This document shows, in pieces, positions 3,270 to 38,315 of a stretch of DNA of 45,274 nt (position 1 is its first letter; every line of letters begins with the position of its first letter). Source of the DNA: a virus. The DNA lies in IMG/VR virus record IMGVR_UViG_3300046499_000150, positions 1 to 45,274 of that record. One strand, written 5' to 3'. The position numbers were made by a program, and so were the translations under genes. Under the pieces are notes generated by a model. It saw nothing but the letters and a program-made list of their open reading frames with translations. It was not told the DNA's origin and made no database searches.

Positions 3270-3305
3270 AGAAAGGGCCTGTGTGTGACACACAGGCCCT
3301 TTTCT
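3270..3305. terminator. Bidirectional rho-independent terminator built on a TGTGTG/CACACA repeat
   Basis: A perfect 11-bp stem (3275-3285 with 3289-3299) closes on the loop TGA. An A-rich run lies on the left and a T-rich run on the right, so either transcript ends in a hairpin followed by U residues. It sits between the stop codons of the two convergent arms (3267 and 3305). The core 3280-3294 is a copy of the dispersed 15-base repeat, extended by GGGCC/GGCCC. Confidence 0.9.
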
Positions 3306-3577: not shown

Positions 3578-6087
3578 CGGTGTGTTCCTTTTGGGTCTTC
3601 CTTGTAGTCCCACTTACCCTTATCGTTGAGGACATAACTCACAGGATAACTCATCTTACACTCGGCCGGAATGATCAGGGGTTCTACCCTCCCCGTGAAG
3701 ACATTCCGTATGGGTATCGGTTCCTCGGCATACTTCTTCAATATCATAAGAGCAGTTTTGATAGTCCTAGGGCTAGCAATACAGACAAGATTATCGTGAA
3801 CGTCAATAGCAATCCTAGCATCGTCAGGCCATCCATCATCGCTCTCCGATTGATACCAAACTTGTGTAACCTTGTCCCCGATTGTGGACTGGGGATAGAA
3901 GGCCACAATCGACTTGAGCACGTCATCGTCGATCCTTTGGATAACCCTGAACCTCCTGCCAAGGGCGTTGAACACGGTCTTCGTTTTACGAAAACCTTTT
4001 TCCTCAGCATCCCACCATCTTTCAAGCTCTGGCGTAGTGCTATGATAGATAACAAAGTTGCGGCTTGCTTCGTTGTAAGAGAGTCCAGTGACTTCAGAAA
4101 GTTTGTACCTCTCCATCCGATAATTGAGGCCGTGTCTACATCTTTTAGCAACGTATCGAATAGTCGGCTTGCCTGCTCCGTCATGGTCGTAGACCGGCAC
4201 CTTATCGTAAGGCACCTTAAACATCTCTGCTGCCAACGCACGGTGGCAATCATACTTGCCGTCAAGACGGGCTTTCTCGAATTGATGCATCCACTTCGCA
4301 ATCCCAGCCCGCCAGCCGACAACTCGGGCCTCGGCTTGTGAAAGATCAAAGTATCCAAAGACCATCCCAGGGTCGCATAGATACATTTCTCGGGCACGCA
4401 CAGGTTGGTTCTGCATGTTTCCACCCTGCCCATCAAGCAGTGATGAACTGGACAAGCGCCCCGGTGCTTTTTGTACACCGTTTTGTCTGTACTCTGATCT
4501 GAATCGTCCATCAGGACCAACGGTCGAGTCAGCGTATGTACCAAGAAACTTGGACTCTTCGGCGTATCGGTTGACATAGCCTATCATTTCCTTGGCTAGT
4601 GCCGGTGTCTCTGGGTTTTTCAGGATGTTAACTCTATTCGCCTCGTCGGTGGACGTGCCCCTACCCTTGAGGTGCAACCTATTGAAGTACAACTCTTTCA
4701 TCTGCTGCCACGAGCCAGGATTGGGATCGTAGAACGGATTACCTGTTAGCTCATGAACACAATCGTGGAACTTTCCAAGTATCCCCTGCACATCCTCGGA
4801 GATGATCTTAACCAACTGTTCCTTACGCTTGAGATCGACCATCACTCCGTGGACTGTGGCGCTAACGAGATGCGGGTGCGCCCGCATGACGTGTTCCTTG
4901 TAGAACCTCCAGAGGTCTTGCTCTTTGAGTTCTTCGCACATCCGTTCCCAACATCGTAGAGTAATGCATGTATCCTTGCCATTGTATCGCCAGAAATCAT
5001 CGATAGTGCCGCCTTCTTTCCAAGATTCAAACTCGTCTTTATAGAAAGGATGGGTAGTATACTGGGAAGTGAGAAAGCCGAGATTATGTGGAAGTTGAGG
5101 GTATAGGGTGTGGTGCTGGAGAAGTGTGTCGTCGGAGAATGACACACTGAGCCAATCTTTAAGCCGCAGGGCGTAAGTATCGAACTGAGCGTTCTGCCCA
5201 ATGAGGGGCACATTGTTTTTCTTGTGTGTGTCACACAAGTCTTGGATGGCGTATAGGATGTCCGCCTCTTCTCGAACCGAGAAACGGTTATCTCTATCGT
5301 CGCGCCAGTTGATACAGAGTGAGTGGTGTGGATCATTAGCGAAACCAATACACGCCGTTTCTTTAGCAATCCACTCAATGTCGAGAGCAGTTGGCTTTCT
5401 TGCTTTTTTAATATTCTCAATTTCGACGAGGCATTGTCGATACGTTGGGTTAATAATTGTCTCGATCTTGTACGGCTTGTACGTTCCATTGAGAACACTC
5501 CCCAATCTGTTACGTATGTCTAACGTGAACACGGGCTCGAGTTTGAGTTCACGCATGGCGTAAGCCGGGTTGACCGTTACGACATACGTTCCCAGGCGAT
5601 TGCCTGGGAGCTTAGCTCCCTGGAGAACTGATCCACGCCAGTTCGTTACTTTGTCCTCGCCAAGAAGGGCACCGAGCGCGAAGTTTCCCATAACAAGAAT
5701 TGTTTTGAGATTAGGGAGCTTAGCAAGCTCCCACTCCAGCAGATCGGCCCACTTGTCAAGTTCTTCCCGTCTGACGACATTGCGAATGTCCCCGTGTCGG
5801 GAGAGAGAGATCTGGCGTTTGACAACATTTGTCGTATAAACATCTGTACGATGAAGACCGACTTTCTTGAGTGTATCGAATAGAAGTCTTCCGCTGCCTC
5901 CAATAAAAGGCCGACCCCTCTCGACCTCGGATTGTCCTGGGCCTTCACCGACGACAGCCACACTCGCATTGATTGGTCCCTCCGAGAAAACCTGAACCGC
6001 GAGGTTCAGGTCTGATGCATGTGCCCTAAAGTGATCTTCGAGTTCACTTGTCGAGGTCGGTTCCGGGTTGGGTATCTTCGACAACAT
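3547..6087 (-). CDS. Uracil-DNA-glycosylase-like / 3'-5' exonuclease / family A DNA polymerase fusion
   Basis: An 846-residue replicative polymerase. Residues about 40-180 resemble family 4/5 uracil-DNA glycosylases: GEGPGQSE followed by GRPFIGGSG at 48-66, with NPAYAM at 173 where HPS-type motifs usually lie. The Cys ligands of the Fe-S enzymes are not evident. Residues 230-375 are a DnaQ-like exonuclease: D236/E238 in LDIEW, D303 in QFDTY, and YNGKD ending at D372. The polymerase domain has motif A DLSQAEAR (D581), motif B with K648 and Y656, and motif C VHDN (D765), where family A enzymes usually have HDE. The start at 6087 has GGAG seven bases upstream and overlaps the gene before it by 44 bases. 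A dispersed-repeat copy lies in frame at 5223-5237 (CDTH). Confidence 0.93.
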   Translation of the reverse strand: MLSKIPNPEPTSTSELEDHFRAHASDLNLAVQVFSEGPINASVAVVGEGPGQSEVERGRPFIGGSGRLLFDTLKKVGLHRTDVYTTNVVKRQISLSRHGDIRNVVRREELDKWADLLEWELAKLPNLKTILVMGNFALGALLGEDKVTNWRGSVLQGAKLPGNRLGTYVVTVNPAYAMRELKLEPVFTLDIRNRLGSVLNGTYKPYKIETIINPTYRQCLVEIENIKKARKPTALDIEWIAKETACIGFANDPHHSLCINWRDDRDNRFSVREEADILYAIQDLCDTHKKNNVPLIGQNAQFDTYALRLKDWLSVSFSDDTLLQHHTLYPQLPHNLGFLTSQYTTHPFYKDEFESWKEGGTIDDFWRYNGKDTCITLRCWERMCEELKEQDLWRFYKEHVMRAHPHLVSATVHGVMVDLKRKEQLVKIISEDVQGILGKFHDCVHELTGNPFYDPNPGSWQQMKELYFNRLHLKGRGTSTDEANRVNILKNPETPALAKEMIGYVNRYAEESKFLGTYADSTVGPDGRFRSEYRQNGVQKAPGRLSSSSLLDGQGGNMQNQPVRAREMYLCDPGMVFGYFDLSQAEARVVGWRAGIAKWMHQFEKARLDGKYDCHRALAAEMFKVPYDKVPVYDHDGAGKPTIRYVAKRCRHGLNYRMERYKLSEVTGLSYNEASRNFVIYHSTTPELERWWDAEEKGFRKTKTVFNALGRRFRVIQRIDDDVLKSIVAFYPQSTIGDKVTQVWYQSESDDGWPDDARIAIDVHDNLVCIASPRTIKTALMILKKYAEEPIPIRNVFTGRVEPLIIPAECKMSYPVSYVLNDKGKWDYKEDPKGTHRWSHLKKVEL

Positions 6088-7875: not shown

Positions 7876-7904
7876 GGGAGGTTGTGTGAGACACACAACC
7901 TCCC
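7876..7904. repeat. Extended copy of the dispersed repeat: 13-bp stem, 3-base loop
   Basis: GGGAGGTTGTGTG (7876-7888) is perfectly complementary to 7892-7904 around the loop AGA. It fills the gap between the DUF669-like gene and the 92-residue gene. No U-run follows on either strand, so it is not a classical terminator; it could be an RNA-processing or stability element or a protein-binding site. Confidence 0.8.
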
Positions 7905-14854: not shown

Positions 14855-14881
14855 GGGGCTTGTGTGTCTCACACAAGCCCC
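14855..14881. repeat. Extended copy of the dispersed repeat: 12-bp stem
   Basis: Arms GGGGCTTGTGTG (14855-14866) and the matching 14870-14881 around the loop TCT form a perfect 12-bp stem just after the stop of the 14892-15836 gene. The U-rich terminator follows separately about 60 bases on, so this hairpin has some other role, such as protecting or processing the transcript end. Confidence 0.8.
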
Positions 14882-18519: not shown

Positions 18520-18548
18520 TTGACAACCGCGCCTGACGGCGGTATAAT
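18520..18548 (+). promoter_or_regulatory. Perfect-consensus sigma70 promoter, rightward (P1)
   Basis: TTGACA (18520-18525), exactly 17 bases, then TATAAT (18543-18548). The 11 bases before the -35 are shared with the leftward promoter at 14600. A repeat copy ends 34 bases upstream. It should be read strongly by host RNA polymerase from the start of infection and makes the transcript for the 65-residue leader gene. Confidence 0.93.
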
Positions 18549-23600: not shown

Positions 23601-25916
23601 ATGGCTTCTGAATTTGATACCGACATGAATGATGATGACGATCCGTCAGGCGATACGTTTGACGTGAACGACTTCATCGATGGAAAGAAGCCTTCTCGTC
23701 CAAAGGACGAGAAGTCTGTGCCTATATACCAAGTCTACCCGGACTCCAAAATTCCTGTATCAAAGGCATATGGCTCGCTGTGGAGAACGATGATCGACTC
23801 GTCGTTAAAAGCAAATGAGCTTATCCATGAGGCATGGGAGCAATGCTTTTCCTATTACAATAACCATCAGGTCAAGATCCAGGGCAGCTCCAAAGGGACA
23901 TTTGCCCGAGGTGACGTTACCGAGAATATGGTTTACAGTAACATTAACGTTATGCTGCCGGCAGTGTATGGGCGTGACCCGGACATTGCCGTTAATACAA
24001 CCGATAAAGAGGACGAGAAGTTCGCAGAAGGTGCTCGCGCACTTTTGAATGCCCTTTTGAAGGGCAAGAACCTATTGAACTGCAAACCAAAAGTGAAGAA
24101 GGCTGTTGGCGTAGCCCTGATGACGAATTACGGAGTACTCAAGCTCGATTACGTTCTAAAAGCAGATTCTTCGGACTCCGCTTTGGATGAACTCAAGCAA
24201 GTCACTTTGGAGATTGAGCGAGCGAAAAACGCTAAGGCGTTGGAAAACGCTTATGGCAAACTCGCCGCGATTGAGTCGGTTGTGAACGTGTTCGAGGCCG
24301 GTGGACCAAAGTTAAAGAATGTTATGGCCAAGAACTTGATCATCGATCCAATATCGGAGATGCCTGATGGTACAGACGCGGGTTGGATGGCAGAGAGGTG
24401 TTTCATTCCGACAAATTTCCTTAAGTACAAATTCACTAGGAAAGAGGAAGACTCCAAAGACTGCTATTATTACATATTCAAGCCCTCGCACAAAGCAGTA
24501 TTCACCAGCGGGTCGGGCAACACAAAGGACGATGCCTACGGCTTGGTTCTGGAAACTCTTGGGGCGGAGACTTCATTTCAAGAGAACGAGGAAGTCGGCG
24601 GGTACAGGGCTTTGTACTATACTGAGTGTTGGATGGTATGGGACAAAGCCACAAGACGTACCGCGCTCTTTGCCGCGGACGATTGGACGTATCCGCTTTG
24701 GGTATGGGACAACTATACAAAAACCACAAGATTTTTCCCATACTTTATCATTGGGTTTGGTCTATCCACAGGACAAACCACAACGGTTGGAGAGGTTTCG
24801 TATTACCTCGACCAACAGGACGAAATCAATCAGATTAATCGACAGGTGAGCCGGATACGCAACTCGATCTTTAACTTTTTCTTCTACAACTCACATAAGT
24901 TGTCTCAGGCCGACGCCGAACTACTCATGCAGGCTATCAAACGTGGGTTTGTCGATGAACAGGCAGTGGTCGGGGTCAAAGTCCCAGAGGGTTCGAAGAT
25001 TGGGGATGTCTTCGAGGCTCTCGTTCCGCCGAGTCTTAACTATGAAGCCCTCTTTAATAAAGAACCCACCATCAACGCAATCAATCGAATCTCTAATACA
25101 TCAGACGCAATTAGAGGTGTCCAATTTAAGACTAATACAAATGAAGCTAGCGTACAGTCTTATCAAGACGCGGCTCGAATGGCTGTGGGAGCAAAGATCG
25201 AGGTCGTCGAAGACGTGTTGAGTGATTTGTGCAAGGCATTGTTAGAGCAGTGTGTTCAGAATATGAGCAAACAAGAGGTCGAGTCGCTTATCGGTAAGAA
25301 ATTGTCTGATGGTTGGGAAAATATGTCCCTTGACGAGTACAATAGGAAATTCGCTTTGGAGCTGGTCCCTGGAACCAGCGAGAAGCCCAATTCTGTGTTC
25401 AAAAAGAAAGAGGCTATTCAAGTCGCCCAAGCCATTGGCCAATTCGCTAGTGCGGCGCCTATGACTTCCATGAAAGTTGCGCTTCGCGTGCTCGAACAAG
25501 CCTTTACGGAGGTTGTCATCAAGCCCGAGGATTGGGACTTGATGGAAAAGGAAATGGAAATGAATATGATGCGGGGGAACTCCTCTGGAGTTGCCGCTCC
25601 CCCGCAACCCGGTCAGAACCAACCACCTCCTGGGGTCTCTCCTCCGCTGCCCGGAGGGGCTCCAGGCGGAGGACCTCCCTCAGCCGGAGGCCCTCCACCA
25701 CCCGGAGTGGGGCCTCCTTCTCCGGGTGGCATCCCGCCCGAGTTGGCGAACTTGCCGCCAGAAGTTAAGGCCCAGGTTGAGCAAATGCACGCTCAAGGGG
25801 CACCGCCTGAAGCAATTGCTCAAATGCTCAAGCAGGCCGTTGCCCGGAATGGAGGTGGCGCACCTGCCCCTAGCCAACCACCTGGGGGCGCACCTCCCCG
25901 ACCAACAATGCAGTAG
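23601..25916 (+). CDS. Portal protein
   Basis: A 771-residue protein. The acidic N-terminus leads into a body typical of podoviral portals: WEQCFSYYNNHQV near 75, NMVYSNINVMLPAVYGRDPD near 112-131, FFPYFIIGFGLSTG near 385, a stalk helix region (QDEINQINRQVSRIRNS near 415), and EASVQSYQDAARMAV near 515. The last 110 residues are a Pro/Gly-rich repeat tail (PPGVSPPLPGG and the like), unusual for a portal. It lies between terminase and scaffold as expected. The ATG is one base after a dispersed repeat (23585-23599) without a Shine-Dalgarno sequence. A perfect 10-bp hairpin lies at 23692-23714. Confidence 0.9.
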   Translation: MASEFDTDMNDDDDPSGDTFDVNDFIDGKKPSRPKDEKSVPIYQVYPDSKIPVSKAYGSLWRTMIDSSLKANELIHEAWEQCFSYYNNHQVKIQGSSKGTFARGDVTENMVYSNINVMLPAVYGRDPDIAVNTTDKEDEKFAEGARALLNALLKGKNLLNCKPKVKKAVGVALMTNYGVLKLDYVLKADSSDSALDELKQVTLEIERAKNAKALENAYGKLAAIESVVNVFEAGGPKLKNVMAKNLIIDPISEMPDGTDAGWMAERCFIPTNFLKYKFTRKEEDSKDCYYYIFKPSHKAVFTSGSGNTKDDAYGLVLETLGAETSFQENEEVGGYRALYYTECWMVWDKATRRTALFAADDWTYPLWVWDNYTKTTRFFPYFIIGFGLSTGQTTTVGEVSYYLDQQDEINQINRQVSRIRNSIFNFFFYNSHKLSQADAELLMQAIKRGFVDEQAVVGVKVPEGSKIGDVFEALVPPSLNYEALFNKEPTINAINRISNTSDAIRGVQFKTNTNEASVQSYQDAARMAVGAKIEVVEDVLSDLCKALLEQCVQNMSKQEVESLIGKKLSDGWENMSLDEYNRKFALELVPGTSEKPNSVFKKKEAIQVAQAIGQFASAAPMTSMKVALRVLEQAFTEVVIKPEDWDLMEKEMEMNMMRGNSSGVAAPPQPGQNQPPPGVSPPLPGGAPGGGPPSAGGPPPPGVGPPSPGGIPPELANLPPEVKAQVEQMHAQGAPPEAIAQMLKQAVARNGGGAPAPSQPPGGAPPRPTMQ
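23692..23714 (+). repeat. Perfect 10-bp hairpin inside the portal gene
   Basis: CTTCTCGTCC (23692-23701), loop AAA, then the exact reverse complement (23705-23714). It is coding (SRPKDEK region). It is one of a series of perfect short-loop hairpins inside genes. Confidence 0.75.
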
Positions 25917-27115: not shown

Positions 27116-27132
27116 CTTGTGTGAGTCACACA

Positions 27133-27147
27133 GAAACCGGAGGTTTC
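27133..27147 (+). promoter_or_regulatory. Shine-Dalgarno hairpin of the capsid gene
   Basis: Arms GAAACC and GGTTTC around the loop GGA, ending two bases before the ATG at 27149 and directly after a repeat copy (27118-27132). The loop is the core of the ribosome-binding site. Three other late genes have the same design with different arms. Confidence 0.75.
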
Positions 27148-27148
27148 T

Positions 27149-28117
27149 ATGGTTCTCGATACAATTATCCACTCAATGCTTGACAGGTCGCGGGCCAAGT
27201 TGATTATGGCCTCGGCGATCTCTGGCACGGTCAGTGCCTATCTGCACGCCAAAAAGCGTGTGGTCACGGAAGACGGCGGCCCGCAAATCACCAATCCGTT
27301 GATCACGGGACTCAATCCTAATGTTCAGTCGATGCAGTACTACGATACTGTGTCGATTGATCAGACCAACGAGTTCTCGACTGTGGAATACTATATGTCC
27401 CGCGTCGTGGGCTCGCTCATCATCTCCGATCAGGAAGAGGATGAAAATCAGGGCCGTGCTGAGATTTTCAAGATCCTCAAGGGAAAGATCCAGGCCCTCG
27501 ATGAGTCAATCAAACGGAAGTTCGCCCAATATCACACATCGGTTGGTACTGGGTCTGATCCTAATGGCCTCGGCAATATTATTCCTGCTGACCCTACTGT
27601 GGGCTCCGTAGGTGGGATCAACCTGGCCAATGAGTCGCAGTGGAGGAGTTCGAGCTATGATTTCAACGGCACGCTTTCGCCGGAGAACATCGAAGAAGCC
27701 TTTGATGACATCATCGAGCTTGACCTCAACCGATCTACGGATGGGCAATCTTCTCCGCGACCCACGGTTATCTTCGCCGGTCGCAACATCTACCGAATGC
27801 ACAAGGCTGCGGCGCGAGACAAGCAGCAAATTCAGCTCAAGGATTCCGGCACAGGTCGAAAGCTTGTCAACCTCGGGATCAGTGGAACGACCCATAACGG
27901 CGTTCCGCTACTCTTTGATGAAAAACTGGCGTCGAACGATGCCTACTTCATAAATGAGGAGTATCTCACTCTTCACGTTCTGCGTGGAGCGAACATGAAG
28001 ATCAAGAAGCTCTCCTCTCCCTGGAACATGGATGCCACTGGCCGTCGCGTCGTCTGGGAAGGTCAACTCTGTACGTGGAGGCAATACCGCACCCACGCAT
28101 ACCTCACAAACACCTAG
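27149..28117 (+). CDS. Major capsid protein
   Basis: A 322-residue protein starting MVLDTIIHSMLDRSRA. The features fit phage major capsid proteins of the HK97-fold type: YYDTVSIDQTNEFSTVEY near 67-84, a charged EEDENQGRAEIF helix, GGINLANESQWRS near 155, PTVIFAGRNIYR near 210, and a final YFINEEYLTLHV. It follows the scaffold and is the best-equipped late gene for translation (repeat plus Shine-Dalgarno hairpin). Its stop TAG lies in the left arm of a 10-bp hairpin (28112-28134). Confidence 0.88.
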   Translation: MVLDTIIHSMLDRSRAKLIMASAISGTVSAYLHAKKRVVTEDGGPQITNPLITGLNPNVQSMQYYDTVSIDQTNEFSTVEYYMSRVVGSLIISDQEEDENQGRAEIFKILKGKIQALDESIKRKFAQYHTSVGTGSDPNGLGNIIPADPTVGSVGGINLANESQWRSSSYDFNGTLSPENIEEAFDDIIELDLNRSTDGQSSPRPTVIFAGRNIYRMHKAAARDKQQIQLKDSGTGRKLVNLGISGTTHNGVPLLFDEKLASNDAYFINEEYLTLHVLRGANMKIKKLSSPWNMDATGRRVVWEGQLCTWRQYRTHAYLTNT

Positions 28118-28169
28118 TCGCTTTGCGACTAGGTATTGTGTGTAACACACGAAAAATCGGAGATTTTTC
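28112..28169 (+). repeat. Three-hairpin junction: stop hairpin, dispersed repeat, Shine-Dalgarno hairpin
   Basis: In order: ACCTAGTCGC/GCGACTAGGT with loop TTT (28112-28134, containing the capsid stop), the repeat copy with centre TAA (28137-28151), and GAAAAATC/GATTTTTC with loop GGA (28151-28169), which ends against the ATG at 28170. Nearly every base of the junction is paired. Confidence 0.8.
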
Positions 28170-28586
28170 ATGGCTGTTTCGGGTATCCTCAATGGTTCGA
28201 GGCTCGCTTACGTTGTGGTCAAGCAGGAGGGCTCGGTCAAACGGGAGAAGCACTTTTGGACCAAAGACGGTATCAAGAAGAAGCTGGTAGACGAGGATGC
28301 CGGATATTTGGTCTACTTTCCACGTGGACATGCCGTCCGTATCAAATCTCTGGCGATGCTTCGTCACTACCAGCTCCACAAGGAGCCGAAGATCATCCAA
28401 CTTGAAGGTCTGAACGATCCGAATAGTCCACTGGGTAAGATGTTCATGTCCCAGGACCAAGCCCTCCGACAGGCGAGCTATCACGAACTCGAGCAAATGG
28501 TGATCAACCTTGCCGAGTCTCGTGGCAAAATCGAAGTGAACGACTATGTCCCACGCGATCTGGATGAGGACGAGCGAGCGGCTTAG
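28170..28586 (+). CDS. Head-associated hypothetical protein
   Basis: A 138-residue protein starting MAVSGILNGSRLAYVV. The N-terminal half is strand-rich (EKHFWTKDGIKKKLVDEDAGYLVYFPRG), and the C-terminal half is helical and acidic. Its place between two capsid-type proteins suggests a head decoration, completion or assembly factor. No family is recognised. Confidence 0.75.
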   Translation: MAVSGILNGSRLAYVVVKQEGSVKREKHFWTKDGIKKKLVDEDAGYLVYFPRGHAVRIKSLAMLRHYQLHKEPKIIQLEGLNDPNSPLGKMFMSQDQALRQASYHELEQMVINLAESRGKIEVNDYVPRDLDEDERAA

Positions 28587-28613
28587 TCCTCCTAACTCAT
28601 AGGAGAGATTTCT

Positions 28614-29285
28614 ATGCTTCGTGATCGACAAGGCTTCATGCAAGGAGTGAACACGTATGTGCCCGGTATGCAGTTCAGTACTGCTCTTAATGTTGCTGAA
28701 GGTAGCGTGTTCTCTCTGGGCCGACCATTGGCCGCCGGGACGCCGACGACTATCAATATTCCGGCCAATGCGAGCGGGTATCTCTCCGCTCCGCTGGAAC
28801 TTACTGACACCCCGTATGGTAGGAACCTTGTCTTGGCAGTGACTACCGCCCTTACCGGGTCTACTTCCGTCCGTATCTTCGGTGAAGATTACCTCGGCCA
28901 GCCTATGGTCGAGGATATCGTCGTCGCTGGTGGTGCGATGAAGAAAGCGTTCTACCGTATCCTTGGCGCACGCGGTATGCCGGGACACACGACCGCCGTA
29001 GCGGCGGTCACTGTACAGCGTGGGGCAAATCTTGGTTTGCCGTACAAGGGCTCCATCGAATGGGCCAAAGAAGCAAATGTCTTTATCGACCTGGCTTTTG
29101 CGAAGATCGTCGCGGCGGACTTGACCGATCCGGCAACTGCCACTACGGGCGACACTCGTGGGCAGTACATCCCCACGGCGGCGCCAGACGGTGTGAAGGA
29201 GTTCATCATCTGTATGCGAGCCGATGGTGCTGTGAACGCCAACAACAACGGTGGGCTTCACGGGATCAAGCAGTTCAACGCGTAA
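28614..29285 (+). CDS. Probable capsid decoration or minor head protein
   Basis: A 223-residue beta-rich protein starting MLRDRQGFMQGVNTYV. Strand and turn patterns (GTPTTINIPANASGYLSAP, then TALTGSTSVRIFGEDYLGQP) and a lack of charged helices suggest a surface beta-sandwich. GGAG precedes the ATG. It follows the capsid and the 138-residue gene and comes just before the tail adaptor, the place of decoration or minor capsid proteins. The assignment is from context. Confidence 0.65.
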   Translation: MLRDRQGFMQGVNTYVPGMQFSTALNVAEGSVFSLGRPLAAGTPTTINIPANASGYLSAPLELTDTPYGRNLVLAVTTALTGSTSVRIFGEDYLGQPMVEDIVVAGGAMKKAFYRILGARGMPGHTTAVAAVTVQRGANLGLPYKGSIEWAKEANVFIDLAFAKIVAADLTDPATATTGDTRGQYIPTAAPDGVKEFIICMRADGAVNANNNGGLHGIKQFNA

Positions 29286-29337
29286 CGAAATCGCGTCGCG
29301 ATTTCGTGTGTGACACACAAGCGAAACGGAGTTTCGC
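29285..29337 (+). repeat. Three-hairpin junction before the tail adaptor gene
   Basis: ACGAAATCGC/GCGATTTCGT with loop GTC (29285-29307, starting on the last base of the stop TAA), a repeat copy with centre TGA (29305-29319), and GCGAAAC/GTTTCGC with loop GGA (29321-29337) ending against the ATG at 29338. It has the same plan as 28112-28169 with unrelated arm sequences. Confidence 0.8.
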
Positions 29338-30042
29338 ATGGCCAAGACGATTCGAGAGATTGTGACCGACGCTCAAGAGTCGCTTGGGGATGTACCGGGT
29401 GCAGGCGTGCAGACATACGCGGACGACCGTATGTTTCGCGACTGCATCCGGGCATTCAACGTGTTCCACAAGAAATTCCCGTGGGATCAGTTCATAAGTT
29501 GGTCTCTCGTAGAACTCGATGGAATATCTGGAAAGATCAAAGATCCAGTGTTCCAGCACCTAAAGGACTTCGACGATATCTTCTCAGTTTTCCCTGAGAA
29601 CTCCAACTTCGAAATCCCGATCTTAGATCGACGACGCAATCCTAACTCGCTTCGTGGAACGAGTGCTATGTTCTGGACGGCGTTACCCACAATCGATCCC
29701 GATTATCAGTGGAAGCGTGTCCAGATCATTCCTCCGACTACCACAGGCAAAGTTGTCATTTGCTGGAGACACTATCCCAGAGACTTTAGCGCGGCCGGTA
29801 TTCAAACCCCGTGGGACTGGGATGATGTGATGGACCTCGATGAGGACATGCTTATCCATGCGGTTTCATGGCTAACGCTCTCTGGTGATGATATCAATGC
29901 CGGCGCAGCCACGGATCAGCAAAATCTTGCAGATGATAGGTTCCAGGAAATCACTGCTGGCCTAGCACGCAGGAAGATTACCCCGAACAAAACGGGTGGC
30001 GGAGTTCCATATAACTGGTATCCGACAAGTCCAAACCCCTAG
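29338..30042 (+). CDS. Head-to-tail adaptor (short-tail tubular protein A type)
   Basis: A 234-residue protein starting MAKTIREIVTDAQESLG. This N-terminal helix, the FRDCIRAFNVFHKKFPWDQF segment, a beta-rich middle (YQWKRVQIIPPTTTGKVVI) and a helical end (DEDMLIHAVSWLTLS) fit the adaptor ring of short-tailed phages that sits under the portal. The tail nozzle gene follows directly, as in T7-like gene orders. Confidence comes from size, order and pattern. Confidence 0.72.
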   Translation: MAKTIREIVTDAQESLGDVPGAGVQTYADDRMFRDCIRAFNVFHKKFPWDQFISWSLVELDGISGKIKDPVFQHLKDFDDIFSVFPENSNFEIPILDRRRNPNSLRGTSAMFWTALPTIDPDYQWKRVQIIPPTTTGKVVICWRHYPRDFSAAGIQTPWDWDDVMDLDEDMLIHAVSWLTLSGDDINAGAATDQQNLADDRFQEITAGLARRKITPNKTGGGVPYNWYPTSPNP

Positions 30043-30057
30043 GTTTGGAGTCTGCCC

Positions 30058-31917
30058 GTGGTTCACGCTTTTAAGAAGTCTAAGAAGGCCCGCCCGGCCT
30101 CCAAGTTGGACTCGTCCACTTTGAGAGGCTTCGGCGGCGGCTGGAATAGCATCGACGAAGACTTGTCGATGAAGCCGAGTTTTCAAGTAACTCTCATTAA
30201 CTTTCACCGCACGACGAGCGGTGCACAGGCTGTTCGGTTCGGACAGAAGTTTGTGTGTGACATACAAGCTGTACACAATTCTCCAATCCTTGACGGGATT
30301 TATTACAACACATGGAATATCGTTTTTTGTGAAGACGGTTTCATCCTCAAGGTTAGTGAAACTGGTTCTACCATAAGCATCATTTGGTCTGGCTTTCCTG
30401 CTGGGACCGTCGCAGACGGTCCACTGATCAAGCAGGTGAGTTTCGTTCCGTTTAAGGACACGTTGATTATCCATACCGGGCAAACCAAACCTCTTGAGAT
30501 CAAACCCACTATGGTTTGTGACTACCTTGCCGATCCGGTCGGCGGCAATGCTCTCACCCCGATTGGCAAATACGGCTGTGTAGCAGCCAATTATCATTGC
30601 GTTGCGAACATTATCACGACCAAGCTCGAACCGCCAGTGACCGGGGTAATCGTAGTTGACGAGCGAAAACAGACTGAGATTTACATCAGCTCTAAGGGCA
30701 CGTCGGGTGTGTTCCCCGGAGATACCGACCCGAACGACTCCATAGCAATCGATGTAGGGGCGTATGCCCCTGAGGGCGCAGCTGCGATCCGTGGGATCGC
30801 TGGGTTCAGAACGTATCTTCTAGTGTTCTTGCAGAATATCACTCTACAAGTCAAACTTGGGGAGTACGACGATAATGGTGCTCACGTTCCAAGGTTCCCA
30901 GACACTCTACCACAGTTTGGGCTTTTGGGCAATCGGTCCATCGTTACTGTTGAGAACGATATCATGTTCTGCGGCCTCTCGGGCCTAGCTTCAGCTAAGC
31001 GCAATCTGTACGCTCCCGACTCGATCACTTCAGACTTTCTCTCAACTGCCATATCTAATACGTACCGTAAGATTACAGGTGCGCTCTCAAACGATGACCA
31101 ACTAACAAAATCATTTGCCGCGTTCGACAAGCTGAATAACAACTTCATGTTGTTCATGCCGGAAGGCAAAGTGTTGTGTTACACGTTCAATCCACATCTT
31201 AAGATGCGTTCGTGGTCACAGTTCGAGGACATGGATTGGACGGCTGCATGGGCGAGTATTTTGGGGCGTATCTTCCTCACGAAGGGAACAAAGATATTCC
31301 TTGGAGGCAACGGCACGTTTGAGGATGAGAACTTCTACGCCGACCGTATCGGTGATCGGGATTACACATACGCACCTAGCCATTCGTTTGTCGCTGGCGA
31401 TCTGGTATACGATCCTCAAACATTCGAGGTGTGGGCATGTCTAGCGAGTTACCTAGGAACAGCAGTACCCACTTTCGCACAGGAACGTATCAACAACCCG
31501 GACAAATGGACTCTGTACGAAGGACTCGCAATCCAAATCGAGATGGAACTCCCTTGGATCGATGGCAAAGACCCGCTAAAGCTAAAGCAACTCCGCTACG
31601 TAAGCATAGCCACGAAAGGCGACGCTGAGTTCACGTTCGAGGCATATGTGGACAACCTGTATAAGGACGTAGATGGCAATGTCATACATGCACCCTCCGT
31701 ATCGATGGCCTTTATTGGCAATGACGCTTATGGTTACGGCTTCGATGATGGCTACTATGGTATGGGCCGGCGTTCTCGTGACCCTCGGCTTTTTGGGATG
31801 CCCGTGAAATTCAAATCAGTGAAGTTCAAGCTCTGGGGAGCGACTACCAAAAAGCTCGAAGTTATCAATCTGTCGTTCCTGTACGCTCGAAACCGTATAA
31901 GTGGTTACGTTCGATAG
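30058..31917 (+). CDS. Tail nozzle / tubular protein B-like
   Basis: A 619-residue protein with GTG start, beginning VHAFKKSKKARPASKL. It is almost entirely beta-rich, with a repeat-like propeller character (IYYNTWNIVFCEDGFILKV, then IVTVENDIMFCGLSGLASA, then FMLFMPEGKVLCYTFNP) and an RISGYVR end, as in nozzle or stabilisation proteins of short-tailed phages. A one-mismatch copy of the dispersed repeat lies in frame at 30252-30266. The start has no strong ribosome site, so exact N-terminus confidence is moderate. Confidence 0.75.
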   Translation: MVHAFKKSKKARPASKLDSSTLRGFGGGWNSIDEDLSMKPSFQVTLINFHRTTSGAQAVRFGQKFVCDIQAVHNSPILDGIYYNTWNIVFCEDGFILKVSETGSTISIIWSGFPAGTVADGPLIKQVSFVPFKDTLIIHTGQTKPLEIKPTMVCDYLADPVGGNALTPIGKYGCVAANYHCVANIITTKLEPPVTGVIVVDERKQTEIYISSKGTSGVFPGDTDPNDSIAIDVGAYAPEGAAAIRGIAGFRTYLLVFLQNITLQVKLGEYDDNGAHVPRFPDTLPQFGLLGNRSIVTVENDIMFCGLSGLASAKRNLYAPDSITSDFLSTAISNTYRKITGALSNDDQLTKSFAAFDKLNNNFMLFMPEGKVLCYTFNPHLKMRSWSQFEDMDWTAAWASILGRIFLTKGTKIFLGGNGTFEDENFYADRIGDRDYTYAPSHSFVAGDLVYDPQTFEVWACLASYLGTAVPTFAQERINNPDKWTLYEGLAIQIEMELPWIDGKDPLKLKQLRYVSIATKGDAEFTFEAYVDNLYKDVDGNVIHAPSVSMAFIGNDAYGYGFDDGYYGMGRRSRDPRLFGMPVKFKSVKFKLWGATTKKLEVINLSFLYARNRISGYVR

Positions 31918-31918
31918 T

Positions 31919-31951
31919 TGTGTGTCACACACAAGGATGAGCGAAGCTCAT
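31919..31951 (+). repeat. Dispersed repeat followed by a hairpin that includes the start codon
   Basis: The repeat copy (31919-31933) follows the nozzle stop. Then ATGAGC/GCTCAT with loop GAA (31937-31951) has the start ATG of the next gene in its right arm. AAGGA lies between the two. Confidence 0.65.
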
Positions 31952-32978
31952 GACCACAGACTTCACTCCAAACTTTGGCCTCGCCCTGCCGGACTTTCGT
32001 ATGGGTCCCTGGCATGACTTGTTAAATGGCGATATCACGAAGATCGATCAGTTGTTAGCCACTGCTCTCTCTTCGTCGAACGTAGTCGCCTGGGCTAACA
32101 ATACACATTACGCCGGTGGCATATCTGTTCTGGACGAGACAGACGCCACGATTTGGATGTGTGTGGTTGCCCATACGAGTGCCGCGAGCGGGACGTTCGC
32201 TCAAGATCGAAGTGCGCATCCTACTTACTGGACAAGATTGCTTACTGGTTTCGCCCCTCGTGGCGAGTGGACAAATAACACGAATTACTTCCCATACGAC
32301 CTTGCATATCAATCGCACTTGGGCATTTTCGCCTTGTGCGAACAAACTCATGTGAGTAATCCTACCGGAACGATCAAAGACGATCAAGCATATTGGGCGT
32401 TCCTATGCGATTTGTCGACCTCAAACTTGGCTGCTGCCGTTACGGTCACGTACTCAAACGCAACGTCACCAACGTTACCTAACACGAATGTTCAAGCCGC
32501 GATTGACAAGCTGGAAGATTACGTTACGAGTTTGAACAACGTGAACGTTACACAAGGCAGTGATATCGCCACCTTGCGTACCGATCTGAACAATGCTATC
32601 GCAACGTTGAACGCGAGCATCACAAGTCTGTCCAACATCACAATGAAGCTTGCCGGCAATCAAGTCACTACGGGCGGCTTTAGGATCACACCATTTAACG
32701 CCGGGAACTCTGTTCCTAACTTCGTGCCAAATCCGATGAATGGAAATTACCAATACGTCAGTAATGTAGGGGCATTCACATTCCAGCCTCCTGTAAACGA
32801 TTGTGCGATGGACGTTCTCATAATAAATTCACCTACTGCCGGTACTGTTGCATTCCCTGGGTTCTCTGTGGGTCTAAACATTGGGGATATTATGACCAAT
32901 GTCAATGGTCATAGGTTCCTCATATCGCTCCGACGCATCAATGGTATCGCAACGTACTCCATAAAGGCGCTCCAATGA
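31950..32978 (+). CDS. Tail fibre/appendage protein, paralogue 1
   Basis: A 342-residue protein starting [16 protein letters not shown]. The first 150 residues are closely similar to those of the next gene (same [23 protein letters not shown] and AYW blocks), so the pair share a virion-binding N-terminal module. Then comes a coiled-coil-like segment ([20 protein letters not shown], then [12 protein letters not shown]) and a distinct beta-rich C-terminal domain. It may be a trimeric fibre or a partner onto which the larger fibre attaches. The stop overlaps the next ATG (ATGA). Confidence 0.75.
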
Positions 32979-35830
32979 CCACAGAGTACACCAAGAATTT
33001 CAGACTGAACCTCCCTGACTTTAGGATGGGGCCTTGGCATGACCTGACTAATACCAATACGGTTAACATCGATGAACTGTTGCTGAACATTGCTCAGGGA
33101 ACAGACACGACCACTTGGGTAAACGGTACGGCTTACGAAGCTGGCCAAACAGCTATCGACGTAAGTGATTATTCGTTCTGGTTGTGTCGTGTGTCACACA
33201 CAAGCGCACTTGCGCCGACAACGTTTGCCCAAGATCGTGTCGCACATCCTACGTACTGGACTCGGGTTGTTGTCGGAATCAACCCCCGTGGTGCTTGGAC
33301 TCATAGCACGCACTATTTTGTCAATGATCTCGTCACTGATGAGCCCGAAGGGGTCATCGCTCTCTGTATAACTGAACATATTAGCTCGGCGCTGCCGAGC
33401 ACGTTCCGCACGGATGCAGCCTATTGGTCGATCCTTGCTGATCTTCACGCAGCCGTAGGCCCTCCTGGCCCAACAGGTGCCACTGGCGCCAAAGGTGACA
33501 CTGGTTCTCAAGGACCAATAGGCCCTGTAGGACCAATCGGTCCTCAGGGCGTTCCTGGCAACACCGGCCCGCAGGGGACACAAGGCCCGGTTGGGCCACA
33601 GGGTGCTATCGGCCCATCGGGCGGCCCTCCTGGCCCTCAAGGCCCCGCAGGGGCTCCTGGCATTATGGGCCCAGGCACAGCAACGCCTCTCATGGACGGC
33701 ACCGCTTCGGTGGGTGTTTCGCCGTCGCTCGCGGCACGCGAGGATCATCGTCACCCAACCGACACGTCAAAATTGAGCCGGGACGGCTCACTCTCGATGA
33801 CGGGTAATCTAACTTTAGCCTATCCGTCGCCAGCTATAGTTCTTGTAGGAGATTTGACAACTAATTCTCAGATTGTGTCGTACAAAGGCGGGACGCCTCG
33901 CTGGTCCTTATCTCTTGGGGATGGTCAGGCAGAGACTGGCGGCAATGCTGGAAATATATTCAACGTTGCTGCATTCAGTGACACTGGAGGATACCTCTCA
34001 TCACCTTTTGCTATTACGAGAGCCGAAGGCCGTCTTCTCGGCAATGGTGTGGTCCCGGTTGCCACTAATGAACTTGTCAACAAAGCCTATGTGGACGGCA
34101 AGGTCGCCGGCGTGGACTTGTCGAGCAAGGTGAGTAAACTTGGCGACACCATGACGGGGACTTTGAATATTACTGCCGGTGGCTACTTAAACGTTAATGC
34201 AGCGGCGAATGGGTGGGCTACCGTTACTCTAACGACAGGCACGAATGGCCGTTCGTACATAGCCAGTCAAAAGAATGGGAAGACACGCTGGGAAGTCGAT
34301 TTAGGTAACAGCGCACCTGAAACAGGCGGCAACGTCGGGTCGGAATTCTTTATTCATCGCTACGACGACGCCGGAAACTATAATAGTACGCCACTCACCA
34401 TTTTGCGTGGCAGCGGCAATGTTGGCATCAATACGGGGGCTCCGCAGGCCAAGCTGGATGTGAATGGTGGGATCATCGCGTCTCAGGAGCTAATACTGAC
34501 AGGCTCGGAGACGCAACAAATCCGTTTGAGCTGTGGCGGTCAGGACTGGCGCATCGCTTCGCAGGCGACGGCGCAGGGCGGAGCGTTTTACATCTATGAC
34601 ACCACGCATGGTGTGTACCCGTTCGCACTTACTCCTGCGGGCAACTGCGGCATCGGCAACGGCTCGCCAGGGTACAAGTTGGATGTAAACGGTGCAATCA
34701 AGGCGAATAACATCATTGCTAATCTGGATTACTCTTATATCGGAGCCAACCTGCAAACGCGTCCGACAAACGCCTATGCTGTTGGCGCCATTGGCTGGAA
34801 TTACAACACCCAAGAAGTTGGGTTTTGGAATACTTACACTGGTGCAGGCACCAATAGCTTTGTGTTCAGACAACTAACAAGCAATGGGGCGGCACACACC
34901 GATCTGATGTCGATCTCGCAAAGCGGCAACCTATGGGTTGGCGGTACCACTGATGTAGTCGGCAAGATCACCTGTGGCGACTTCAAGTCGAACAACAATG
35001 TCCAGTCAGCAGGCGGTATCTATTACTTTCAGGACGGCAACAAGTATCTGCAATATGGTACTGGCGTTGCGGTGAATGGAGCAGCGGGCTTTTATTTCAG
35101 CGACAATGCTTGGCACAACGGTACGCTCGGTACCCTCACCGGCCTCGTGACTTCCCAATCAACAAACGTAAGCCATGCCGTCTTTTCGATGACGAACGAG
35201 TTTCGCGTGCAGCAGGGCGCGCTGTATTGGGATCGTTCCACCAATGCCGTTAGCCTCGTTAGCAACGTCGCCAGCACTTCCCTGATCATACAACCCAGCG
35301 GCGTCGTCAAGCTCGGCATTGGCTATGCCGGCAGGGCGGGACAAGCTGGCGCCTTCGACGGCAACGCCCACAACTTCTACTGGACGAGCAGTCTGCACGC
35401 CTACATCGACAACGTCGATTTGGGCCCGGTTGCGTTCGCCTGCGACTACCGCATCAAGAAAGATGTCGTCCCGCTCGACAGTACCTGGGACGCCGTGAAG
35501 GCGCTCAAGCCGATCAGCTATACGCAGGCTGAGTTCATGCCGCTTGTCACCAAGGTGGATCGTGTAAAGGAAGCGGCCGATCTAAGAAAAGCTAACCCAA
35601 AATCTGAGTTGCCAAAGTATCCACCTATGTACGCAGCGGACAACATCGAACGTTGGGGATTTATAGCTCACGAGCTACAGGACACGTTAATCCCAATGGC
35701 TGCCACAGGCACTAAAGACAGCCCCAACGAAATACAAGCTCCTAACCCGCTCGTGATCATAGCTGCACTAACACGAGCGTTGCAAGAGGCTATGTCCCGG
35801 ATCGAAGCGCTCGAAGCAAAGATTGTGTGA
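32975..35830 (+). CDS. Collagen-containing tail fibre with C-terminal S74 intramolecular chaperone
   Basis: A 951-residue fibre. It has an N-terminal anchoring module shared with paralogue 1 (1-155), a collagen-like Gly-X-Y region (about 161-230: [13 protein letters not shown] and so on), a [10 protein letters not shown] linker, beta-helix-like repeats, and from about 820 an S74 peptidase domain ([18 protein letters not shown], then [11 protein letters not shown]). S74 domains help trimer folding and then cut themselves off. The usual catalytic Ser of the SD-xR-xK motif is Cys here (CDYRIK). A repeat copy (33188-33202) is in frame, and the stop TGA lies inside another (35824-35838). It is probably the main receptor-binding fibre. 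Confidence 0.88.
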
Positions 35831-35842
35831 GACACACAACTC

Positions 35843-36829
35843 ATGCCCGATGTCGTAATCATATTAACTTCTGGTTCTAGTTGGACAGTCCCAAATGACT
35901 GTAGGGATGCCAAAGTTGAATGCGTTGGCGGTGGGGCTGGAGGTTCTGGTGGCTCCGCTGGAGCCACCGGCAATGTTGGTGCGTCTGGCTTTACCGGCCT
36001 TGGCGGTGTTGGTGGAACTGGCGGCGACGGGGGATTTGGTGGTGGAGGTGGAGCTTATTCCATGCTAACAAGTACGTTCGTAGCAGGAACTATCATATCA
36101 TATGGAATTGGTGCTGCTGGCGGCATAGCCTCCAACGGAGGCGACACTTGGTTTAATGGAACATCGTTTGGCAACGCTGCTGTTGCTGCTCAGGGTGGAT
36201 TTCACAATGGAGCTGGAGGCGCTGCCTCCAGCGGCAGAGGCTCGACTAAGTATTCTGGCGGAGCCCCTGGCACCCGTGCCGCAGGCTCTGTAGGTGCCAA
36301 AGGGCCAGATCCTATCGGCGTTTCTGGTGGCAGAGGCGGAACCGGAGGGGCTGGTGGAACAGGCGGCTCTGGTGGCGGCGCTGCTGGCCTTCACGGTTCA
36401 GGAAACAATGGTTCCGGCGCAGCCGGAGGCCCTGGCGATGCAGGAAGCGTGGGAGCTGGTTCTTCCGGCTCCCAATGGGGCTCCGCTGGTTCCGGCGGTG
36501 GCGCAAATGGTGGCTCTGCCCCTGGAGGAGGAGTTGGCGGTCCTGGTGGAGTTGGTGCAAACGACCCTGGTAGTACCGGTGTGGCTGGGAGCCCTGGTAA
36601 TCCAGCGGATCTCTCTGGTCAATATGGCGGCGGCGGAGCTGGAGGCTCAGGCGGTGGTGGTGGCGGTGGTGGTGGTGCAGCCGGTATAACTGCCTATATC
36701 GGCGGGGCCGGTGGACCAGGTGGTGGCGGCGCAGCCGGCTCTGCCGGGAAACCCGGCGTTATCGTAATTACATACACACCGTATATTCCTGTTTACCATC
36801 TAGGCAACCTTCCGATGCAGGGCTTCTAA
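35843..36829 (+). CDS. Glycine-rich tail adhesin
   Basis: A 328-residue protein. The short N-terminal strand segment (VVIILTSGSSWTVPNDCRDA) leads into some 280 residues dominated by glycine with Ala, Ser and Asn, as in phage glycine-rich domain adhesins whose tips form polyglycine II sandwiches. It ends in VIVITYTPYIPVYHLG. Its place right after the S74 fibre suggests a fibre-tip receptor-binding protein. The ATG is four bases after a repeat copy and has no Shine-Dalgarno sequence. Perfect coding hairpins are at 35948-35968 and 36212-36232. Confidence 0.78.
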   Translation: MPDVVIILTSGSSWTVPNDCRDAKVECVGGGAGGSGGSAGATGNVGASGFTGLGGVGGTGGDGGFGGGGGAYSMLTSTFVAGTIISYGIGAAGGIASNGGDTWFNGTSFGNAAVAAQGGFHNGAGGAASSGRGSTKYSGGAPGTRAAGSVGAKGPDPIGVSGGRGGTGGAGGTGGSGGGAAGLHGSGNNGSGAAGGPGDAGSVGAGSSGSQWGSAGSGGGANGGSAPGGGVGGPGGVGANDPGSTGVAGSPGNPADLSGQYGGGGAGGSGGGGGGGGGAAGITAYIGGAGGPGGGGAAGSAGKPGVIVITYTPYIPVYHLGNLPMQGF

Positions 36830-37318
36830 ATGACTAAGGACCTCACACATCGAGTTTACGAACCGAAGGACATTCCACGGGTCCTCGATCTAATCATGCT
36901 GGCGTTACCACAATTACCCAACTATGCAATGATCGTACCAGACCGAGATCGGATCGAATATGTTCTCACCCATAACGTCGATAACGCCGAGGCATTTGGC
37001 GGGTGGGTCTTGTGTGACACACACGAAACCGTTTACGGTTTCGGTGGTGCCTGGTGCGTTCGCAGTCTCATGTCTATGGACTTCGTGGCTGATGACATAT
37101 TTATGTGGGTTGAGCCTGAATATCGGACTTACCCAAACGTGCGAAAACTTGTTATCAACTATGTGGACTGGGCACAGGCGCGAGGCGCCAAGCTCATCCG
37201 TGCCTCCCACACGGGAGGAAGTTTCCCTAAAGACAGTCGTGAGGCTATGCTCTACCACACCTTACTCATGAGACTCGGGTTCAAAGAAGTCGGAAGCGTG
37301 TACCACCTGCAAGCGTAG
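36830..37318 (+). CDS. GNAT-like acetyltransferase-fold protein
   Basis: A 162-residue protein starting MTKDLTHRVYEPKDIP. The fold pattern of a beta strand, the helix DIPRVLDLIMLALPQ, FGGWVLCDTHETVYGFGGA, a strand, a helix with VRKLVINYVDWAQARGAK, and MRLGFKEVGSVYHL resembles GNAT proteins often found among podoviral tail and internal genes. The canonical acetyl-CoA loop (R/Q-x-x-G-x-G/A) is not clear, so activity is doubtful. A repeat copy in frame (37011-37025, CDTH) is followed at once by a hairpin GAAACCG/CGGTTTC. Its stop TAG is in a hairpin loop (GCAAGC/GCTTGC). Confidence 0.65.
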   Translation: MTKDLTHRVYEPKDIPRVLDLIMLALPQLPNYAMIVPDRDRIEYVLTHNVDNAEAFGGWVLCDTHETVYGFGGAWCVRSLMSMDFVADDIFMWVEPEYRTYPNVRKLVINYVDWAQARGAKLIRASHTGGSFPKDSREAMLYHTLLMRLGFKEVGSVYHLQA

Positions 37319-37341
37319 CTTGCAACATACGGAGAAAAGTA

Positions 37342-38256
37342 ATGTCCGGTTCAAGCCCTCCTCCAGACAATTCAATGCAAGTCGAAATGATGCGTGAGAA
37401 AGCCGCGGCAGAAGAACGTCAGCGTCAAGACGATCTTGCGGCACAGCACAAAACTGAACTAGCAGGACTCCGCACCTCGGCCCGTGGCACTGCGGGTAAC
37501 ACCGTGAGAAATTACTTCTCGGAACAGGGGATCGATCCCGATAGGTACGGTGGTTCGATCGATACGCAATTGAATGCCATGCTCGGGGGAATCTCTCCGA
37601 CCGATGAGAACCCTGGAGCGGCCTTTACAGGGGCCGGGCAAAGTATCTACGATACTTTGCAGACGGGTGAACGCTCAAAATACGGGAACCAACTTAACCA
37701 GATCTTCGCCCCCGAGTGGGAAATGCGGCGAGTCCCCATGAATATGGATGACCCGTATCTTGCCGGTGTCGAAAGCGAGCAATATGCGACTGCCGACGAT
37801 ATCATCAAGCACCTAGTCGATCGTGGCGTACTCACATCGGGCGGATACGCTGCCGCACAGAAAGACCTCGAAGGCCAGCGCGCCGGGGTGAGGTCTCGAC
37901 TGAACGAAATCGGTACGGGTCTGCTCACCAAAGAGCAACAAAGCCTTCGCGATATCAGCAATCGTGCAAGGCAATCGGCCTCTACGGCCCAACTTGGCAG
38001 TTCGTTCGACCCGTACTCGTACCAAGGCGAAGCCGATCAGAGCTTCAACGACTTCATTGCAGGTCTGGGCAGTAGCATCAGAGGCCAGGTCCCTGGACAG
38101 TTGTTTAATACAGCCGGTCTTGCCGCCATTGGCGGGGCGGGTCAGCCGCTCGGCAACACGGCGTTCAATCCAGCAGCCGCTAGTGGGACGGATACTACCG
38201 ACGACACAAGTACTCAAGATAATAACAGGCCCACTAATCCAAACTCGATCTTCTAG
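37342..38256 (+). CDS. Probable internal virion protein
   Basis: A 304-residue protein starting MSGSSPPPDNSMQVEM. A charged helix (EKAAAEERQRQDDLAAQHK) is followed by Gly/Ala/Gln-rich helices and a disordered Thr/Asp/Asn-rich end (DTTDDTSTQDNN). The composition and the place between fibres and the giant protein are typical of small ejection or internal core proteins. A perfect 10-bp coding hairpin lies at 37638-37660. No family is recognised. Confidence 0.65.
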   Translation: MSGSSPPPDNSMQVEMMREKAAAEERQRQDDLAAQHKTELAGLRTSARGTAGNTVRNYFSEQGIDPDRYGGSIDTQLNAMLGGISPTDENPGAAFTGAGQSIYDTLQTGERSKYGNQLNQIFAPEWEMRRVPMNMDDPYLAGVESEQYATADDIIKHLVDRGVLTSGGYAAAQKDLEGQRAGVRSRLNEIGTGLLTKEQQSLRDISNRARQSASTAQLGSSFDPYSYQGEADQSFNDFIAGLGSSIRGQVPGQLFNTAGLAAIGGAGQPLGNTAFNPAAASGTDTTDDTSTQDNNRPTNPNSIF

Positions 38257-38264
38257 GGTGTGTG

Positions 38265-38315
38265 GGAACGCTCTCGCGTTCCTGTGTGTGACACACAAAA
38301 TCTCGGAGAGATTTT
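38265..38315 (+). repeat. Three-hairpin junction before the 327-residue internal protein
   Basis: GGAACGC/GCGTTCC with loop TCTC (38265-38282), a repeat copy with centre TGA (38283-38297), and AAAATCTC/GAGATTTT with loop GGA (38297-38315) ending against the ATG at 38316. It is the third example of this plan in the late operon. Confidence 0.8.

Follow-up and report, generated by a model that had tools for sequence, protein, structure and literature searches.

Is a ribosome-binding site held open in the loop of a perfect hairpin a device that selection has built, or can such a structure be written into a genome by the way its DNA is copied? This question is raised by the 45,274-nucleotide (nt) viral record IMGVR_UViG_3300046499_000150 (the window, meaning that whole stretch), an uncultured soil phage that encodes a large terminase, portal, major head protein and DNA polymerase and whose closest named phages are only distantly related (about 22-27% identity). 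Before four of its late genes, the Shine-Dalgarno (SD) GGA is the loop of a hairpin whose arms differ from gene to gene, which the original prediction took as covariation-like evidence for RNA structure. Our analysis, in which all evidence is sequence-based, suggests with a probability of about 0.5 that the four hairpins are young, lineage-specific products of template-switch copying, placed by their adjacency to a palindrome.

Four Shine-Dalgarno hairpins and the palindrome beside them

All four hairpins lie on the + strand, and each was folded alone to obtain its free energy. AGAAACC-GGA-GGTTTCT (27132-27148, -6.2 kcal/mol) precedes the ATG of the major head protein gene at 27149, GAAAAATC-GGA-GATTTTTC (28151-28169, -4.1 kcal/mol) precedes gene 28170, GCGAAAC-GGA-GTTTCGC (29321-29337, -7.0 kcal/mol) precedes gene 29338, and AAAATCTC-GGA-GAGATTTT (38297-38315, -4.8 kcal/mol) precedes gene 38316. 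The arms of 7, 8, 7 and 8 bp are all perfect, each closes a GGA triloop, and the last base of each hairpin is the base directly before ATG (4/4). The hairpins proposed at these genes are therefore borne out, with an arm at 27149 that is 1 bp longer than first described, and the pairing of their arms is real, as RNA folding in 110-nt contexts keeps the GGA unpaired at a probability of at least 0.95 in all four. The two weaker forms proposed at 43015 and 31950 are not equivalent. An imperfect GAAAA/TTTTC stem of 5 bp with an 8-nt loop containing GGAG precedes gene 43015 (42997-43014, +), where folding leaves the GGA unpaired at only ~0.5-0.65. At 31950, ATGAGC-GAA-GCTCAT (31937-31951, +) overlaps the start codon, such that the loop is GAA, the stem includes the AT of the start codon and the SD lies outside the loop.

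Perfect GGA triloops with arms of at least 7 bp number five in 45 kb with both strands counted, the fifth being intragenic (33774-33790), whereas ~0.1 are expected from a rough estimate based on base composition. Measured against the genome's own raised rate of noncoding hairpins, 4 SD-centred hairpins are seen versus 0.08 expected (Poisson P ~2e-6). The first comparison rules out pure chance as the source of the four hairpins, and the second rules out that they were placed at random at the hairpin rate of this genome, so that either palindrome adjacency or selection is needed to explain where they lie.

Inspection of the adjoining sequence reveals such a palindrome. Each of the four 5' arms starts 0-2 nt after a copy of GTGTG-NNN-CACAC, all on the + strand: GTGTG-AGT-CACAC (27119-27131) lies 0 nt ahead of the 27132 arm, GTGTG-TAA-CACAC (28138-28150) 0 nt ahead of the 28151 arm, GTGTG-TGA-CACAC (29306-29318) 2 nt ahead of the 29321 arm, and GTGTG-TGA-CACAC (38284-38296) 0 nt ahead of the 38297 arm. 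Six hairpins with arms of at least 6 bp stand directly downstream of a palindrome in the sense direction, including those at 37024 and 31937, while further hairpins stand directly upstream of palindromes at 28112, 29285, 38265 and 8792. Three of the four SD sites have an additional hairpin on the palindrome's other side, among them ACGAAATCGC-GTC-GCGATTTCGT (29285-29307, +), which extends into the palindrome and is found in the window lineage only, and GGAACGC-TCTC-GCGTTCC (38265-38282, +), which ends 1 nt ahead of it. The hairpin CGAAACCG-TTTA-CGGTTTCG (37024-37043, +) serves as an internal control, since it abuts a palindrome within a gene and has the same geometry with no SD and no start.

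We propose that, as the DNA is replicated, short-range template switching (by quasi-palindrome correction or snap-back copying) would write perfect inverted repeats, and that this copying would often act right beside the dispersed palindromes. With 17-19 nt between palindrome and start codon, a new hairpin would almost inevitably have the SD at its middle. Hairpins of this kind would be tolerated, and perhaps mildly favoured, because the GGA is exposed in the loop and the stem stops short of the AUG and is weak enough for a ribosome to melt. A serious, if less likely, alternative is that the hairpins were selected to display the SD, insulating the ribosome site from the palindrome or upstream hairpin and offering the GGA as a docking toehold before melting. 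In its favour, the four C-GGA-G triloops fill the interval from palindrome to ATG and halt at ATG (4/4), their placement departs from the genome's own hairpin rate as given above, their stems are weak with an open GGA, and the capsid gene is one of the four genes concerned.

The exposed GGA had also led to the proposal that CsrA/RsmA proteins control these late genes. A GGA in a hairpin loop over the SD is indeed the general layout of CsrA targets, but high-affinity sites are ANGGAN hexaloops on stems of mostly four or fewer pairs (PMC7652899). Here a triloop sits on a perfect stem of 7-8 bp and an A two positions ahead of the GGA is found in only 1/4, a Pfam scan of 20 window proteins (a set that does not include every open reading frame) gave no CsrA match, and the hairpins are not conserved. 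The size of the loop, the length of the stem and the flanking A thus disfavour such control, which we regard as highly improbable. Slightly less remote, but still quite improbable, is a function in the DNA itself, in which single-stranded or cruciform signals would act as N4-like virion RNA polymerase promoters or as protein sites. Tight triloops on perfect Watson-Crick arms would suit such signals, as would the ability of the palindrome to form its own 5-bp stem with a 3-nt loop. Against this, the arm sequences are not shared, no virion RNA polymerase was found among the proteins searched, and use of the host polymerase is indicated by consensus sigma-70 promoters at 18520, 19558 and 16240(-).

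Orthologous starts in related phages

To address whether the pairing is conserved, more than 100 related viral loci were fetched for comparison; the 38316 protein, used as a query for further relatives, yielded two loci only. The palindrome is kept before orthologous genes, occurring in 42/47 distinct capsid-gene upstreams, but the SD hairpins are not. Relatives with a 93-99% identical capsid protein retain the palindrome, with sequences such as CACACAGACAGGTGAAGTCATG that show no pairing, the common form before 28170 is ACACACGGAGATT....ATG with the 5' arm missing, and many relatives at 29338 have neither hairpin nor SD (gtgtgagacacacaacATGGCC). Among palindrome-bearing orthologous sites, a hairpin between palindrome and start was found at 0/34 for 28170, 0/14 for 29338 and 0/6 for 38316. 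The capsid gene gives 1/42, this being the distant relative L100 with 5 bp and a CCA loop. No orthologous site tested carries a GGA-loop hairpin. A site of a different kind is L017:7826, where the palindrome is followed by AGGAC-AAA-GTCCT ending at ATG, with the SD in the stem and not the loop.

The geometry of palindrome plus GGAG was also followed across at least 166 distinct sites from viral contigs and the fetched loci, where a paired GGA triloop occurs, among the matches listed, only in the window lineage and at two others, which are unrelated, non-start, chance matches. The SD hairpins themselves are shared only by L034 (near-identical, 98.9%) and L005 (identical), and outside the window the exact 28151 hairpin sequence occurs in L034 and the L005/L239 contig alone. 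Because the same hairpins appear in contigs of other datasets (L034, L005), an assembly artefact is disfavoured. In the comparison with L034, all 85 differences over 7.4 kb fall within one 840-base patch (24002-24839), a recombination-like pattern, and the window and L034 versions of this patch each contain their own tight hairpin.

These comparisons rule out a conserved RNA element, as no pairing exists at the orthologous sites of the four genes. Different arms with the same pairing are not covariation here, because the four sites are non-homologous and the orthologous starts lack the hairpin; compensatory pairing, which would mark a conserved cis-regulatory RNA, was not seen at them. That is to say, when the pattern was sought in related phages, the genes were found intact with arms unpaired at all four, the very outcome named beforehand as evidence against the prediction. 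Selection for SD display is weakened by the same results, namely that no GGA-loop hairpin stands at the orthologous sites tested or, beyond the two chance matches, at the listed palindrome-plus-GGAG sites outside the window lineage. It is further weakened by the window genome itself, in which most SD-bearing starts have no such hairpin and equally perfect hairpins without an SD abound.

Tight perfect hairpins and a proposed template-switch origin

The tight-hairpin excess is 10- to 20-fold genome-wide. With palindromes masked, the window contains 48 perfect hairpins with arms of at least 7 bp and loops of 3-4 nt (~1 per kb) versus ~6 expected, where expectations throughout derive from order-2 Markov, base-composition and codon-shuffle models. 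Separated by loop size, 22 hairpins have 3-nt loops (3.8 expected) and 26 have 4-nt loops (2.0 expected), whereas 5-nt loops number 1 versus 2.9 expected and hairpins with still longer loops exceed expectation about two- to threefold. For arms of at least 8 bp, 26 hairpins with 3-4 nt loops are seen versus 1.4 expected; 16 are intragenic versus 1.1 under synonymous-codon shuffling, with gene limits approximated from open reading frames. Relatives contain 0-3 such hairpins (arms of at least 8 bp) per 12-23 kb locus, and the nearest show a mild rise at most when arms of at least 7 bp are counted. In control phages the same class numbers 4 in lambda and 0-2 in T7, TM4 and three others, so that neither relatives nor controls show an excess comparable to that of the window. 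The original prediction correctly described the hairpins at its four sites and overlooked this genome-wide excess, as well as the palindrome and the flanking hairpins.

The character of the stems bears on how they arose. Perfect 8-bp stems are enriched 13.6-fold, whereas stems with a single mismatch are enriched only 0.7 to 3.7 fold, G-U mismatch stems standing at 1.7-fold and A-C at 0.7-fold. Perfect stems far above chance with no comparable excess of near-perfect ones are as expected from template switching, and the barely enriched single mismatches, together with the lack of a G-U preference, favour such copying over selection for RNA pairing. Genome-wide selection for RNA stability was rejected on this lack of G-U preference and on the lack of GNRA or UNCG excess in the loop list inspected. 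Alignment to relatives reveals intragenic hairpins (23692, 33384, 14202 and 1922) in which one arm closely resembles the family sequence while its partner has strongly diverged, and hairpins at 28991 and 30784 that grew from near-palindromes. At several intragenic hairpins the encoded protein is poorly conserved locally (identity 0.32 v 0.71, 0.33 v 0.75), and most relatives have nothing that corresponds to the 5' arm at 28151.

A close parallel is offered by published template-switch and quasi-palindrome hairpins, which acquire perfect Watson-Crick stems with short loops at once, one arm being copied from the other with no gradual intermediates (PMC8794818; PMC7202029). The window, which is known here from sequence alone, differs from them in its far greater density, its loops of 3 and 4 nt and its frequent abutment on palindromes. 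A further parallel is found in the coding palindromes of Nematomorpha mitochondria, where many perfect intragenic inverted repeats with concerted arms occur in one lineage; those repeats average 43 bp with arms ~37 bp apart (PMC6649704), versus 7-12 bp and 3-4 nt loops here.

Several observations weigh against a template-switch origin. The SD-centred placement exceeds the genome's noncoding hairpin rate, and four stems halting exactly at ATG are explained more directly by selection. Template switching makes perfect stems in one step and favours 4-nt loops, but 3-nt loops are depleted among published events (PMC8794818), and the triloops seen here are thus unexplained by that work; the strict limit of 3-4 nt is not accounted for by loop thermodynamics either. 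At 5990 and 11867, intragenic hairpins remain paired in relatives whose sequence has changed there, the derived arm is unclear in many other intragenic hairpins, and mean protein identity across 20 hairpins is only 0.63 within versus 0.72 beside them. Finally, the relatives stand at ~75% DNA identity with no comparison genome between this and 98.9%, such that no immediate ancestor was seen.

The SD stems are weaker than the other 44 hairpins (-4.1 to -6.8 kcal/mol, the median of the others being -11.0; P=0.002), which suggests a stability ceiling at ribosome sites and fits template-switch and selection accounts alike. On balance, we infer that the four SD hairpins would have a template-switch origin, with the palindrome as trigger and a near-neutral effect on translation. 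A combined account, which we consider somewhat unlikely, is that this lineage's strong hairpin-writing replication, palindrome-triggered and strict in its 3-4 nt loop, builds RNA hairpins, including SD-display ones, that are then selected.

The palindrome, the capsid-stop hairpin and known systems

The palindrome belongs to a family of ~40 copies in 45 kb, mostly intergenic and present in both the leftward early and rightward late regions, with further copies at, for example, 3281, 8777, 12745, 25919 and 39308. Across 455 distinct copies from the window and relatives, the half-sites covary (GTGTG/CACAC, GTTTG/CAAAC, GTATG/CATAC), and the centre reads AGA in the mRNA sense 65 times versus TCT 13. 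A start codon usually lies 0-20 nt downstream, both in the window and in related uncultured phages. The palindrome also sits within long perfect hairpins with 12-14 bp arms (3272-3302, 7876-7904 and 14855-14881), the first of which lies between convergent genes with T- and A-rich flanks and resembles a bidirectional terminator. The sigma-70 promoters at 18520 (+), 19558 (+) and 16240 (-), with 12, 12 and 11 of 12 consensus bases, sit in the early/late control region with a palindrome near each.

The palindrome is a putative operator-, stoperator- or SAS-like element. The start-associated sequences (SAS/ESAS) of cluster K mycobacteriophages resemble the SD hairpins in containing an SD, in their G/C symmetry before ATG and in having inverted repeats ahead at some genes, but SAS is one conserved 13-bp sequence that precedes non-structural genes and is shared between relatives (PMC3203893). 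The window hairpins comprise four sequences at late genes and are not shared, their arms differing at all four sites with none matching the conserved GGGATAGGAGCCC. The palindrome is a better analogue of a conserved start-associated repeat than are the SD hairpins. It is likewise the palindrome that resembles the stoperators of L5-like mycobacteriophages, which are many short, mostly intergenic sites genome-wide, although a stoperator is asymmetric and the repressor that binds it is known (PMC9283540). Among the window proteins scanned, no repressor, integrase or palindrome-binding protein was found. No tRNA genes were found in the window, and a search of genome contigs with the capsid protein found no relative.

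A second hairpin at the capsid gene, ACCTAGTCGC-TTT-GCGACTAGGT (28112-28134, +, -15.5 kcal/mol), covers the capsid stop codon and ends 3 nt before the palindrome. A hairpin that overlaps or follows the capsid stop and abuts the next palindrome occurs in 12/34 relatives with differing sequences (e.g. CGTAAACC-TTC, CATAACGC-AAG, GACAGGC-GAA and ACGAACGC-TCT), at loci that include L006, L010, L011, L012, L031, L036, L037, L038 and L045; the independent count is below 12 because several of them are close kin. At other genes, 0 or 1 relatives have a hairpin in the equivalent position. This hairpin is better evidence of selected RNA structure than the SD hairpins, with the same template-switch caveat, and perhaps acts as an attenuator or a protector of mRNA ends. 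Elsewhere, at the start of the DNA polymerase frame, a minus-strand gene, ACCTGAACC-TCGC-GGTTCAGGT (5990-6011) is followed by TTTTC, and its pairing persists in three relatives in which bases of both arms have changed.

Both the conserved, start-associated palindrome and the capsid-stop hairpin deserve follow-up. More broadly, different arms with conserved pairing within one genome can stem from inverted copying and not from RNA selection. The window genome has the strongest tight-hairpin signature among the set compared and is useful for asking how new hairpins, possibly those at ribosome sites, arise. If the combined account, in which selection keeps newly written hairpins, is true, this lineage would provide a natural system for watching the birth of cis-regulatory RNA structure.

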